Assembly: GCA_005883955.1 (NCBI GenBank)
Contig: VAXH01000072.1
Coordinates: 1-62,427, forward strand
Direction of reading: 5' to 3'
Source of the DNA: Actinomycetota bacterium
GTDB taxonomy: Bacteria; Actinomycetota; Thermoleophilia; Gaiellales; Gaiellaceae
Length of the DNA stretch: 62,427 bases
The position numbers and the translations under genes are program-made. The notes under the pieces were generated by a model. The model did not search any database and was not told where the DNA came from. It worked only from the letters and a program-made list of their open reading frames with translations. The number at the start of each line of letters is the position of its first letter. Position 1 is the first letter of the stretch. Of the stretch, positions 19,391 to 23,782 are shown piece by piece.

Positions 19391-20345
19391 ATGCCCGCTG
19401 CGCTCGAGTGGTCGGCTTACAGGGATCCCTCGCTGCCGGCGCTTGAGCGCGAGAGGATCTTCGCGCGAGCCTGGCAGTACGTCGGCCACCTCGGTGAGCT
19501 CGGCCAGGGTGCCGGCTACGTCGCCGGCCGCGTCGGGGACATCCCCGTCGTCGTCACGCGCGACCGTGATCATGCGTTGCGGGCGTTTCTGAACGTCTGC
19601 CGCCATCGCGGCTCCGTCCTCGCGGCGGGAGCCGCGGCCCGCGAAACGCTGCAGTGTCCCTACCACGCCTGGACGTACGGGCTCGACGGTGCGCTCAGGT
19701 CGGCCCCTCGCTCGGACCGCGAGCCGGAATTCGACTCCGGCGGCATCTCGCTGCGGCCTGCCTCGGTGGGTGCCTGGGGCCCGCTTCTTTTCGTCAACCC
19801 GGACCCGGACGCGTCACCGTTGGCCGAGGTCCTCGGCGAGCTACCGCGGCTCGTGGCAGAGGCCGGAGTCGTGGTCGACGAACTGCGTCACAGTGTTCGC
19901 ACAGAGTCGACCGTCGAGGCCGCCCGATGCCTACGAGCTCGCCCCCGGCGATGACTACTCCAGCCAGTTCGGCCCCGTGCGCGAGAACGGCAGCGGGCTC
20001 GACACCGAGGGCGAGGTGACGCGCAGCCAGTTCCACTTCCTCTGGCCGAACACGATGATCAACATCTTCCCGGGCCGGACGAACTTGTCGATTGGCCCGG
20101 TCCTGCCGGCAGGGTCGGCGCGAACGGAACGGTTCCTCGACTACTTCTTCGGGCCCGAGGTCGAAGCGGCGTGGATCGACGAGTTGCTCGAGTTCGACGA
20201 GCAGGTCGGAGCCGAGGACAAAGTCCTGGTCGAGAATGTCCAGCGCGGCGTCGCCACGGGGCTGATCGAGCGCGGGCGCCTGCTGCCAGAGAGCGAGCGT
20301 CTGATCGTCGACTTCCAACAACGGATCCGGGGCTCCCTCGCCTAA
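19391..20345 (+). pseudogene. Rieske oxygenase alpha subunit, internal deletion plus frameshift
   Basis: The first frame (19391 to about 19925) has an intact Rieske domain: Cys70-x-His72 and Cys89-x-x-His92. The second frame (from about 19926 to 20345) continues with the C-terminal half, starting PDAYELAPGDDY and ending in FQQRIRGSLA, and keeps the acidic EDKVLVE segment. Between them about 28 residues expected from homologues are absent, namely the NWK...ExxxxCYHCxxxHP block that carries the histidine ligands of the catalytic iron, and the frame shifts by +1 (lost length is 2 mod 3). As written it cannot be active. It would have been a ring-hydroxylating or amine-demethylating oxygenase; no reductase gene is adjacent. 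Real decay and assembly error are both possible. Confidence 0.85.
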
Positions 20346-21400
20346 CGCGCGCGTCCTCGTGGCGGCCGCTGCGTCCGGCGGCGCTGCCTGGCCTCCTTTC
20401 TGATCTGCTGAGCGTGCTCGGAGCGGGCGCGGGCGTCGAGGCGCCGCTCGAGTCGGCCGAGCTCGCGCTGGAGCTTGCGCCAGCTGTCGAAGCGATCCCG
20501 CGGCAAGGTGCCGGTGCGAAGCGCCTCGCGGACGGCGCAGCCGGGCTCGCTCTCGTGCGCGCAGTCGCCGAAGCGGCAGGTCGACGCCAGCGCGGCCACG
20601 TCCTCGAACGTCTGCTCGAGACCGTGCGAGACGTCCCAGAGCTGCAGCTCGCGGAGGCCTGGGGTGTCGAGCACGAGTCCGCCTCCCGGCAGCGGCAGTA
20701 GCTCGCGGTGACGCGTTGTATGTCGCCCGCGGCCGTCGCTTCCGATTTCGGCGACCGGCATCACGGTTCCGCCCGCGAGGTGGTTCACGATCGTCGACTT
20801 GCCGACGCCGGATGAGCCCAACAACGCGACGGTGCGATGTCCGGCCAGGTAGGGCGACAGCCCGTCGAGGCCTTCGCCGGTGAGGCCGTTCACCGCGTGG
20901 ATGGGGACGCCGAAGGCGACCGCCTCGACCTCGAGCACGGCCGCCTGGACGTCGGCGCAAAGGTCGGTCTTCGTCAGCACGATCACGGGCTGGGCGCCGC
21001 TCTCCCAGGCCGTCGCCAGGTAACGCTCCAGGCGGCGGGGCTTGAAGTCTGCGGGCGTCAGGGCGGTGGTCACGAAGACCGTATCCGCGTTCGCGGCGAG
21101 CACCTGCTCCTTCGCAGCGAGCCACGGCTCCTTGCGGGAGAAGACCGTCCGGCGCGGGAGCACGGCTGCGATCGTTTCTGGCTCGCGGACGCCGACCCAG
21201 TCGCCGACTGCCGGCCAGATCTCCTCGTGGCGAAGCCGCCCCGCCAGCTCGGCGCGGAACTCCCCCTGCTCGCCGTAGAGCACGTAGGCGCTGCGGTGCT
21301 CGACCGCGACGCGTGCCGGCCTGAGCCCTTCTGCTCCGTACTGCTCGAACTCTGTTTCGCGTTCGGGTGTCCACCCGAGCCGCATGAGCGCTTCGCTCAA
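20342..21400 (-). CDS. rsgA: Ribosome small-subunit-dependent GTPase A
   Basis: 352 residues. An OB fold is followed by the circularly permuted GTPase: TKTD (143-146, G4), GSSGVGKS (195-202, G1), HTT (227-229), DTPG (245-248, G3), then the zinc knuckle C275, C280, H282, C288. It acts in late 30S maturation by releasing assembly factors upon GTP hydrolysis. Start TTG 21400, with GAGGAG seven bases upstream; ATG 21385 is the alternative. Upstream is a short ORF whose end is complementary to this ribosome site (see 21407-21493), suggesting translational control. The C-terminus is rich in Arg. Convergent overlap of 4 bases with the Rieske pseudogene. Confidence 0.93.
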   Translation of the reverse strand: MSEALMRLGWTPERETEFEQYGAEGLRPARVAVEHRSAYVLYGEQGEFRAELAGRLRHEEIWPAVGDWVGVREPETIAAVLPRRTVFSRKEPWLAAKEQVLAANADTVFVTTALTPADFKPRRLERYLATAWESGAQPVIVLTKTDLCADVQAAVLEVEAVAFGVPIHAVNGLTGEGLDGLSPYLAGHRTVALLGSSGVGKSTIVNHLAGGTVMPVAEIGSDGRGRHTTRHRELLPLPGGGLVLDTPGLRELQLWDVSHGLEQTFEDVAALASTCRFGDCAHESEPGCAVREALRTGTLPRDRFDSWRKLQRELGRLERRLDARARSEHAQQIRKEARQRRRTQRPPRGRAR

Positions 21401-21406
21401 CTCGAT

Positions 21407-21493
21407 GCTCCTCTCTGGAACAAGCCGACGCGGACCACGCAGCGGCCCGCCTTGCAGACGTCAGCCGGTGTTGAGCGCTGCTACGAGAGGAGC
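21407..21493 (-). promoter_or_regulatory. Candidate translational switch in the rsgA leader
   Basis: GCTCCTCTC in the last codons of the 16-codon leader ORF (mRNA corresponding to 21493-21485) is perfectly complementary to GAGAGGAGC around the rsgA Shine-Dalgarno (21415-21407), with 69 bases between. If paired, the rsgA start would be hidden; a ribosome completing or stalling on the leader would free it. Confidence 0.4.
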
Positions 21494-21531
21494 GCCACGC
21501 GACCGGCGGAGACGAACGGCTCTTTTTTCAT
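21481..21531 (-). CDS. Leader ORF upstream of rsgA (16 aa)
   Basis: ATG at 21531 is preceded by a perfect AGGAGGTG with 6 bases of spacing, the best ribosome site in the neighbourhood. It encodes MKKEPFVSAGRVALLS and stops at TAG 21481, 80 bases before the rsgA TTG. No similarity to a known leader peptide is recognised. Six consecutive A residues follow the start codon. The strong ribosome site and its pairing with the rsgA site suggest a regulatory leader rather than a functional peptide. Confidence 0.5.
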   Translation of the reverse strand: MKKEPFVSAGRVALLS

Positions 21532-21604
21532 CAGGCACCTCCTCGGTCGCGGGTTCCGCCCAGCGTAGGGAACGTGGTCGTCGCGGTCAACCCGGCGGAA
21601 GTTT

Positions 21605-21710
21605 GTAACAGGCTGTTACTTGGATATCGAGCCCGGAAGCGCTCCGGTAACGCCGAATCCATCTATTCCAAGCGCTTCCGCGCTTCGAGGACTTAGTAAC
21701 AGACTGTTAC
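21605..21710. repeat. Paired palindromes GTAACAGRCTGTTAC around an inverted repeat
   Basis: GTAACAGGCTGTTAC at 21605-21619 and GTAACAGACTGTTAC at 21696-21710, both followed by TTG. Between them, CGGAAGCGCT (21634-21643) and AGCGCTTCCG (21671-21680) form a perfect 10-bp inverted repeat. The second palindrome contains the stop codon of the Nudix gene. It could be a double operator (TetR-like dyads) upstream of the rsgA leader, or a REP-type doublet. Confidence 0.75.
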
Positions 21711-22393
21711 TTGTTCGCAGGCGGCCGCAGGACCGCGAACTCGTCGGTCACCTCGAGGCGCCGCGCGCGGAAGCGAAACACCGCGGCCGGGCGGCCGCCG
21801 CCGCGGCCTGGAGCACGGCGCTCGCCGGTCGCTTCGATCACGCCGCGGCGGAGCAGTACGCGCTGCAGGTTCGTCGCCGAGATGTCGTGCCCGAGCGCCG
21901 CAGCGTAGAGCTCCCGCAGCTCCGAGATCGTGAACTCGGCCGGCGCGAGTGCGAAGCCGATGTTCGTATACGAGAGCTTCGCGCGCAGGCGCTCGCGGCC
22001 CGCAAGTGTGATCTCCCGGTGGTCGAACGCGAGCTCCGGCAGTCGCGAGAACGGATGCCAGGCCGTGTCGGCCGGAAGCTCCGGGTCGACGCCGGTCGGG
22101 ACGAGGCCGAGGTAAGCCGTCGCGACCTGCCATTCCTGCGGATGGCGCGCCGGCTCGCTGAGCGTCTCGAGCTGCTCGAGGTGGGCGACCTCGCGCACGT
22201 CGACCTTGGCGGCAAGGTGTGTCCTGATCGAGCGCTCGAGGGTCTCGCCGCGCTCGAGGTAGCCACCCGGCAGCGACCATGCGCCGAGAAAGGGCTCTCG
22301 CGCCCGCTGCCAGAGCAGCGCCTGCAGCGCGCCGTCGCGGATCTGGAGCACCGCCGCGAGGGAGACGTGGGTCGGGTTGGTAGACTGACGCAC
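21707..22393 (-). CDS. Nudix hydrolase with C-terminal winged helix (NrtR-like regulator)
   Basis: 228 residues from GTG 22393; upstream in-frame codons belong to the divergent promoter region. The N-terminal Nudix domain contains GGYLERGETLERSIRTHLAAKV: the family box is GxxxxxExxxxxAxREx2EExGx, and here the REVQEE-like part is altered, so hydrolase activity may be weak or lost. Residues about 150-215 form a winged helix with the ATNLQRVLLRRGVI helix, as in NrtR/COG4111 regulators, in which the Nudix domain senses ADP-ribose-type ligands. Divergent from an MFS transporter, which it may control. The stop codon lies inside a GTAACAG palindrome. Confidence 0.82.
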   Translation of the reverse strand: MRQSTNPTHVSLAAVLQIRDGALQALLWQRAREPFLGAWSLPGGYLERGETLERSIRTHLAAKVDVREVAHLEQLETLSEPARHPQEWQVATAYLGLVPTGVDPELPADTAWHPFSRLPELAFDHREITLAGRERLRAKLSYTNIGFALAPAEFTISELRELYAAALGHDISATNLQRVLLRRGVIEATGERRAPGRGGGRPAAVFRFRARRLEVTDEFAVLRPPANK

Positions 22394-22438: not shown

Positions 22439-23782
22439 ATGACGGTAATCGAGGCTCAGGCGCCGGCCGCTGTCGGGCGCGATGTGGAGGAGGTCCTGCG
22501 CGCGCGCGGCCTCTCGAGCTTCCACCTCAAGGCGATCCTCGTCACGGGCGCGGCGTGGACGTTCGTGGCAATGGAGATTCTGCTCGTCGGCTTTGTGGCA
22601 CCGGTTTTCGCCGGACTCTGGCATCTGAACGGCGTCATGTTGGGCCTCGTCAACAGCGCCGCGCTCGCCGGCTCGCTCGTCGGCAGCCTCGTCCTCGGGC
22701 GCACTTCCGACCGCATCGGCCGCAGGCGGATCTTTCAGTTCTCGATCCTCTGGTACGCGATCTTCACCGCCGGCACGGCGCTCTCGTGGGGGCCCTGGTC
22801 GGTGATGACCTTCCGCTTCCTGGCCGGGCTCGGGCTCGGCGGCATGCTCGTCGTCGACCCCTCGTTGCTGACGGAGTATCTGCCACCGCAGCGCCGGGGC
22901 CGGTTGCTGGTGACGCTCGACCTCTTCTGGCCGCTCGGCCTCCTGTTTGCGACTGGGCTCTCGTACGTCTTTCTCGTGCAGGTCGGCGGCGCCTGGAGCT
23001 GGCGCTGGCTCTTCCTCGCCGCAGCTTTCCCGGCCTTCATGGCCTTCGTCGCCCGGCTCTCACTGCCCGAGAGCCCGTTCTACCTGGCGCGCAAAGGAAG
23101 GACCAAGGAGGCCGCTGCGGTGCTGGAACAGATCACGGGCGAGCCGGTCGGAACCGAGGCGATCACGACGCCGCCAGAGCCACGTTCGTCGATCACCGAA
23201 CTGCTCGCGCCGGGCCTTCGGCGCACCTCGGCCGTGATGGTCGCGGTCTGGATCGCGCTGAACATCTCGTACTACGGACTCTTCCTCTGGCTGCCGTTCG
23301 TGCTCCAGGGCGAGAAGTCGTTTCAGATCAACGTCTACCTGCTGCTCACGCTGGCGGCGCTGTCCCAGTTCCCGGGCTACGGGGCCGCGATCTGGCTGGT
23401 CGAGCGGATCGGCCGCAAACCGACGCTGGTCATGTTCCTGCTGCTCGGCGGGGTCTCGGCGTACGCGTTCGCGGTTGCCGGCTCCGCCACGGTCTATGTG
23501 ATCGCGCTCTTCTTCGTCGGCTTCTTCAACCTCGGCGCCTGGGGCGCGGTCTATCCGTACACCGCCGAGCTTTTCCCGACGCGCGTCCGCTCGACCGCGT
23601 TCGGGTTGGTGGAGGGCGTCGGCAAGGGCGCGGCGATCGCCGGCCCGTACATCTTCGGGAACCTCAAGGACGCGACCGGGAGCACCACTTGGTCGATCAC
23701 GTTCATCGCGCTCGTGATGGCCGGCGGCGGGATCGTCGCGTCGTTGCTCGGCCGCGAAACGCGCGGGCAGAAGCTGCTGTAA
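22439..23782 (+). CDS. Major facilitator superfamily transporter
   Basis: 447 residues and twelve hydrophobic helices. MFS signatures: the loop 2-3 motif GRTSDRIGRRRIFQ, the matching LVERIGRKPTLV in the second half, PESPFYLARKGR after helix 6 as in the sugar/aromatic-acid porter families (SP/AAHS), and PTRVRSTAFGLVEGVGKGAAI. It likely imports a sugar, polyol or organic acid by proton symport; the substrate is not evident. The start ATG 22439 has GAGGGAG six bases upstream. Possibly controlled by the divergent Nudix regulator. Confidence 0.9.
   Translation: MTVIEAQAPAAVGRDVEEVLRARGLSSFHLKAILVTGAAWTFVAMEILLVGFVAPVFAGLWHLNGVMLGLVNSAALAGSLVGSLVLGRTSDRIGRRRIFQFSILWYAIFTAGTALSWGPWSVMTFRFLAGLGLGGMLVVDPSLLTEYLPPQRRGRLLVTLDLFWPLGLLFATGLSYVFLVQVGGAWSWRWLFLAAAFPAFMAFVARLSLPESPFYLARKGRTKEAAAVLEQITGEPVGTEAITTPPEPRSSITELLAPGLRRTSAVMVAVWIALNISYYGLFLWLPFVLQGEKSFQINVYLLLTLAALSQFPGYGAAIWLVERIGRKPTLVMFLLLGGVSAYAFAVAGSATVYVIALFFVGFFNLGAWGAVYPYTAELFPTRVRSTAFGLVEGVGKGAAIAGPYIFGNLKDATGSTTWSITFIALVMAGGGIVASLLGRETRGQKLL

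Follow-up and report, generated by a model that had tools for sequence, protein, structure and literature searches.

The gene rsgA in the window, i.e. the whole stretch of 62,427 nucleotides that was analysed, is preceded by a 16-codon ORF with a strong Shine-Dalgarno sequence (SD), and leaders of the same kind stand in front of rsgA in 27 genera. With moderate confidence we interpret this region as a cis-acting leader that would couple the translation of rsgA to the translation of the short ORF irrespective of the encoded peptide, a reading which rests on the comparison of sequences. Two predicted RNA helices are central to it: in helix A the SD of the leader ORF pairs with the interior of the ORF, and in helix B the partner of the rsgA SD lies at the end of the leader ORF or shortly past it. 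The output of rsgA probably depends on the ability of ribosomes to translate the short ORF.

Anatomy of the leader in the window

The first-pass annotation, made from the letters of the window, had described the short ORF with an AGGAGG six bases 5' of its ATG as well as two complementary 9-base arms, one in the last codons of the ORF and the other holding the SD of rsgA. All positions given for the ORF and its SD proved exact, the complementarity of the arms is perfect, and a Pfam match identifies the downstream gene as rsgA (Table 1). The leader TAG is separated by a gap of 80 bases from the TTG of rsgA at 21400. Besides the leader, the 62-kb window contains no other ORF of 11–22 codons with a strong SD.

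Table 1. Features of the rsgA leader region in the window (positions of the window)
Feature	Position	Strand	Remarks
-35 hexamer TTGACC	21585..21590	-	17-base spacer to the -10 hexamer; read from sequence
-10 hexamer TACGCT	21562..21567	-	predicted transcript start ~21555
Helix A outer 5' arm CGCGACCG	21544..21551	-	8 bp with 21498-21505 in the predicted fold
Leader ORF SD AGGAGG	21538..21543	-	within helix A, pairs with ORF interior; 6-base spacer to ATG
Leader ORF MKKEPFVSAGRVALLS	21481..21531	-	ATG 21531-21529, 16 sense codons, TAG 21483-21481
Helix A 3' arm, TCTCC GC CGGTCGCG	21498..21512	-	ORF interior; partners are the leader SD and the outer 5' arm
Helix B 5' arm GCTCCTCTC	21485..21493	-	last ORF codons; inverted repeat
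GC-rich hairpin GCGGGCCGC TGC GTGGTCCGC	21430..21450	-	gap between leader and rsgA; local hairpin, -14.9 kcal/mol
rsgA SD region GAGAGGAGC, helix B 3' arm	21407..21415	-	invariant within the genus; family-wide swap test
rsgA, TTG start, 352 aa	20342..21400	-	PF03193 RsgA_GTPase, E 4.9e-50

Taken alone, the match of the two arms in the window is weak evidence, because 1.3% of Markov shuffles of the leader also yield a perfect complement of at least 9 bases linking leader and rsgA SD region (P = 0.013) and dinucleotide shuffles fold as well as the whole leader does (z = -0.16). The 9-bp helix is also predicted by folding of the leader RNA, though as a minor form with a probability of 0.15 in the window ensemble, where local pairing competes with it; we did not take it as decisive by itself. 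Since CCTCC-like complements are common to any pair of SD-bearing stretches, these window values would even fit chance complementarity among GC-rich, SD-like sequences without any regulation. We regard this explanation as very improbable in view of the swap tests with negative controls, the conservation in 27 genera and the matches of a covariance model across genera presented below. The leader itself lies far above chance, being the sole short ORF with a strong SD in the window and recurring before rsgA in relatives. Furthermore, the stronger hairpin of the region is helix A, which closes the SD of the leader ORF and was missing from the earlier reading.

Two further observations concern the neighbouring genes. 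Just upstream of the rsgA leader lies a gene with a NUDIX domain and an NrtR winged helix (21707-22390, minus strand), which is divergent from a gene for a sugar-type MFS transporter (22439-23782, plus strand). A Rieske-type gene (19391-20345, plus strand) is apparently split: its N-terminal part (PF00355) stops at 19954 and the apparent continuation is open in another frame, so that a frameshift or an assembly error is likely.

Distribution among relatives

We collected the upstream regions of rsgA from 103 sampled genomes of the wider family, 78 of which gave a match, and added the sister family; the sampled genomes are mostly metagenome assemblies. An ORF of 12–23 codons with a strong SD was found before rsgA at 70 loci from 27 genera of the window's family and the sister family, so that the short ORF is conserved in relatives as the first-pass annotation would have it. 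The carriers are a large group of uncultured soil actinobacteria. Their leader ORFs start with ATG in 69 cases and with GTG in one. The leader stop is TAG in 53 of the 70 and the start of the following rsgA is TTG in 65 of the 70, both counts standing without a comparison to genome-wide usage.

Three sister species possess a near-identical leader with the promoter hexamers, AGGAGG, ATGAAAAAAGAG and both arms of helix B, encoding the peptide MKKELFV(S/A)AGRVAFLS. The rsgA arm GAGAGGAGC is unchanged in them, and the 5' arm reads GTTCCTCTC in all three, a single C to T change which leads to a G-U pair. The exact arms proposed earlier, with the 5' arm in the last codons, are thus kept in the window's genus with the sole change from C-G to U-G, whereas in many other genera this arm lies after the stop codon.

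The leader ORF is absent at three loci of the main rsgA lineage (L160, L185, L186), and rsgA can therefore do without it. Two of these species (L185, L186) have a -10-like element and an SD immediately 5' of rsgA, an arrangement that looks like a deletion of the leader. Second rsgA copies and more distant RsgA genes are mostly without a leader. When named genomes were scanned, most of the RsgA obtained came from other phyla and the range of the leader was not extended, and a search at the level of the class revealed related leaders in another family and none in most families. A longer leader ORF of 24 codons occurs at three loci of another family of the class (L231, L232, L238), where the peptides have VS(I/T)PV(R/H)R in common at the C-terminus; here, too, the leader SD pairs with the ORF (GTCTCC). 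As a side observation, the RsgA of two Phenylobacterium MAGs (L041, L047) is 52–54% identical to the actinobacterial query in the best segment, which is unusually high for different phyla and makes a transfer possible.

Two helices covary across genera

To compare pairing between leaders we used an alignment-free swap test, in which the duplex energy of a leader's own arms is set against that of arms swapped between genera. One leader per genus was used to lessen phylogenetic dependence. For helix A (leader SD with ORF interior) the own arms paired better than swapped ones, with 0 of 5000 permutations reaching the observed value for 66 leaders as well as for 26 genus representatives; a coarser version of the swap gave p = 6.7e-6 over 27 genera. 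For helix B the segment tested against the rsgA SD comprised the last 18 bases of the ORF and 30 bases past its stop, and the observed value was reached in 0 of 5000 permutations (66 leaders) and 1 of 5000 (26 genus representatives). Two negative-control pairings gave no advantage of own over swapped arms in the same test. Pairing of the rsgA SD with the interior of the ORF was rejected as a general rule, its own arms being no better than swapped ones.

Helix B is the helix of the first-pass annotation in a generalised form. Covariation, which had been named as a check on the two 9-base arms, is found across genera between the rsgA SD and the segment at or just past the leader end. The pairing solutions are distinct by genus (e.g. 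GCUCCUUC:GAAGGAGC, GCGAGUCUC:GAGACUCGC, CUCAUCUCC:GGAGAUGAG, GCUCCUUGCGC:GCGCAAAGGAG), and the position homologous to the 3' arm of helix A reads GCCTCC in most of them. Helix A appears in the minimum-energy folds of most genera and is often accompanied by an outer helix; the folds of several genera also have a third hairpin, located where the ORF ends. The sequestration of a downstream SD near the end of an upstream ORF, by which coupling leaders are recognised, is thus seen family-wide and is weakly predicted in the window itself.

In addition, nine leaders of a single genus were used to build a covariance model. The model matches the leader in several other genera, and within its source genus the leader is the only clearly significant match per genome. 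Pairs changed on both sides number 17 versus 6.5 in shuffles, in an alignment that was fitted to the model and is biased toward structure. We did not detect second copies elsewhere: the best model matches inspected (own genome and one relative; two weaker) lie inside genes, and among five short-ORF matches inspected in the own genome, of 41 pattern matches, there was no comparable leader before a gene.

The frame is kept and the peptide is free

Frame 0 from the ATG closes within 12–23 codons in 70 of 70 leaders; this is partly a selection effect since short ORFs were sought, yet only three loci of the main lineage were without a candidate. Codon differences within genera comprise 425 nonsynonymous and 65 synonymous ones, and differences between same-genus relatives amount to 239, 299 and 167 at codon positions 1, 2 and 3 (in both counts the pairs are not independent). 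Between genera the leader peptides differ. The pattern indicates that selection keeps the frame, the start, the stop and the RNA structure and does not keep the identity of the peptide. An arrest peptide or an amino acid sensor is unlikely because the peptide drifts freely, and we discarded both candidates on the basis of the substitution pattern. Conserved stalling peptides or codons, the mark of an arrest-peptide attenuator of the erm type, were accordingly not found among the leaders compared. A conserved, putatively translatable short ORF in the same predicted transcript, as belongs to an upstream-ORF coupling leader, is present throughout the 70 leaders, with the promoter upstream.

The covarying structure, which buries both SDs, would also suit a structured leader that is bound by a protein or ligand, e.g. 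RsgA itself or a ribosomal protein, or that senses temperature, the ORF then being incidental; SD-anti-SD hairpins are a usual form of RNA thermometers. We consider this improbable, as the frame, the nearly invariant ATG and the short length in every one of the 70 leaders are hard to explain if the ORF is untranslated, and Rfam gave no credible match for the window leader or for the leaders of 20 relatives.

Promoter and hairpin between leader and rsgA

A transcription start downstream of 21493, which would have counted against the leader, is not indicated, and the predicted promoter lies upstream of the ORF. A strict -35/-10 pair upstream of the leader ORF is found in 31 of 70 leaders, versus approximately none in shuffles, and a TANNNT ending 55–25 bases before the leader ATG occurs in 57 of 70, where 9.6 are expected. 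The region upstream of the leader contains two copies of a 15-bp palindrome, GTAACAGNCTGTTAC, at 21602-21622 and 21693-21713. The own genome has 51 such sites (0 for a reversed-pattern control), mostly paired at a distance of 70–128 bases and apparently often at gene ends, so that the palindrome is a dispersed and paired one, either a REP-like element or a paired operator. With 51 sites genome-wide we rejected these GTAACAG palindromes as an rsgA-specific operator.

The GC-rich hairpin between leader and rsgA is present in all four species of the window's genus. Only two genera have a clear T-run behind the pre-rsgA hairpin (7 T in 9 bases), resembling that of an intrinsic terminator; hairpin tails with 4 or more T occur in 14 of 70 leaders, and neither the window's genus nor most other genera show a T-run. 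A general intrinsic terminator was therefore rejected: the terminator between leader and gene that characterises transcription attenuators is not the rule among the 70 tails and is absent in the window. Transcription attenuation may be added in the lineages with T-runs. At three loci (L021, L144, L025) we noticed a GC hairpin and then a T-run between leader and rsgA, resembling an intrinsic terminator, together with a third arm, GAGGCTC, that is complementary to the anti-SD arm of the ORF.

The T-runs of the two genera, and an anatomy that fits the topAI/toiL model (PMC12121999), would agree with a stall-sensing attenuator of the ermC or toiL kind, in which a ribosome stalled by antibiotic or stress shifts the fold and thereby opens the rsgA SD or avoids a terminator. 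Such a sensor seems unlikely to us, given that no stalling peptide is conserved outside single genera and that most genera, including the window's, are without terminator-like tails.

Accessibility of the two ribosome-binding sites

We computed the accessibility of both SDs in silico. The probability that the leader SD is unpaired is 0.05 in the window, with a median of 0.02 over 66 leaders. For the rsgA SD the mean is 0.21, and shuffling of the upstream part gives 0.34. When the footprint of a ribosome terminating on the leader was masked, the mean accessibility of the rsgA SD rose from 0.21 to 0.26 (22 increases, 9 decreases, p = 0.005), and masking by an initiating ribosome gave no rise. 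In the window the rsgA SD has an accessibility of 0.04 without a ribosome and of 0.20 with one at the stop. The probability of helix B is low in the window because a local partner competes; it reaches 0.95 in one sister species and 0.05–0.07 in the other two. In 44 of 65 leaders the footprint of the terminating ribosome covers the partner of the rsgA SD core, and in several genera the helix B arm is located 14–28 bases past the stop, at or beyond the edge of the ribosome. The earlier claim that the rsgA site is closed unless a ribosome occupies the leader end is thus borne out as far as the pairing of the rsgA SD in this place is concerned, whereas in silico a terminating ribosome opens the site only modestly.

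These values also bear on a negative design, in which the leader ORF acts as a ribosome decoy or its translation keeps rsgA closed, in either case lowering rsgA. It could be suggested by the ATG and strong SD of the leader in nearly all genomes combined with the TTG of rsgA. We think it quite unlikely, since the leader SD is itself buried, unlike that of a good decoy, and the partner of the rsgA SD is positioned near where the leader ribosome ends.

A model for rsgA expression

In the translational-coupling reading, which we prefer, the elements would act in the order promoter, short ORF with its SD in helix A, rsgA SD in helix B and weak TTG of rsgA. A 30S subunit would first have to capture the leader SD in competition with helix A. 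The translating ribosome would unfold helix A and so aid the next initiation, and on reaching the leader stop it would disturb helix B, thereby exposing the rsgA SD and allowing rsgA to be translated by coupling. The sequence of the peptide would be irrelevant and only the presence of a translatable ORF would matter. With a gap of at least 47 bases, one ribosome is unlikely to re-initiate at rsgA after finishing the leader. Comparison across genera shows the ORF, the promoter, helix A and helix B; translation of the leader, a positive effect of this translation on rsgA and the signal behind the rate are steps we infer. Most likely rsgA output would follow the status of initiation and translation and no particular amino acid or arrest peptide. 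Possible signals are the general capacity for translation or initiation, or stalling anywhere in the ORF; feedback from ribosome state, as envisaged in the first-pass annotation, is conjectural.

We tentatively put forward a narrower version, possible though doubtful, in which the leader is a double lock that gauges free, initiation-competent 30S subunits: the 3' end of 16S rRNA and the internal anti-SD would compete for the leader SD, the outcome would set leader translation, and only then would RsgA, the 30S-finishing GTPase, be made. If this were true, a late 30S maturation factor would be wired to the supply of 30S through base pairing alone.

To our knowledge little is established on how the levels of ribosome assembly GTPases are adjusted in bacteria. 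The rsgA leader offers a concrete case, open to test, of the expression of an assembly factor being coupled to translation status. It also suggests that a short upstream ORF can be strongly selected without conservation of its peptide, and searches for leader ORFs that rely on the peptide would miss such cases.

Comparison with known systems

The first-pass annotation knew of no described case for rsgA, and we likewise found no description of an rsgA leader in the open-access literature searched, the coverage of which is incomplete and some of the searches broad. A coupling leader of this kind would be new for rsgA. In translational attenuators of the ermC type a leader peptide ORF and hairpins control a downstream SD, and control in erm leaders relies on an arrest peptide that senses a drug. 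The rsgA leader shares with them the ORF and the hairpins over the downstream SD and differs in that its peptide is free to change between genera.

In E. coli the fold of the toiL leader of topAI-yjhQ hides the downstream ribosome-binding site, and several classes of antibiotics relieve the hiding (PMC12121999). Both leaders have a short upstream ORF and a fold over the downstream site that is opened, or in our case would be opened, by events of leader translation. Unlike toiL with its antibiotic stalling (PMC12121999), the rsgA leader has no conserved stall peptide and no known inducer, its own SD is sequestered, and the controlled gene is a different one. iraD is reported to be coupled to a short upstream ORF and repressed by CsrA via this ORF (PMC5574718); coupling through a short upstream ORF would be common to both, whereas the SD of the rsgA leader ORF is predicted to be closed by an intramolecular hairpin. 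Autoregulated leaders of ribosomal proteins such as rplJL are reported to be bound by the encoded protein (PMC4538822). They resemble the rsgA leader as structured mRNA leaders before a ribosome-related gene, and the rsgA element is set apart from them by being centred on a short ORF.
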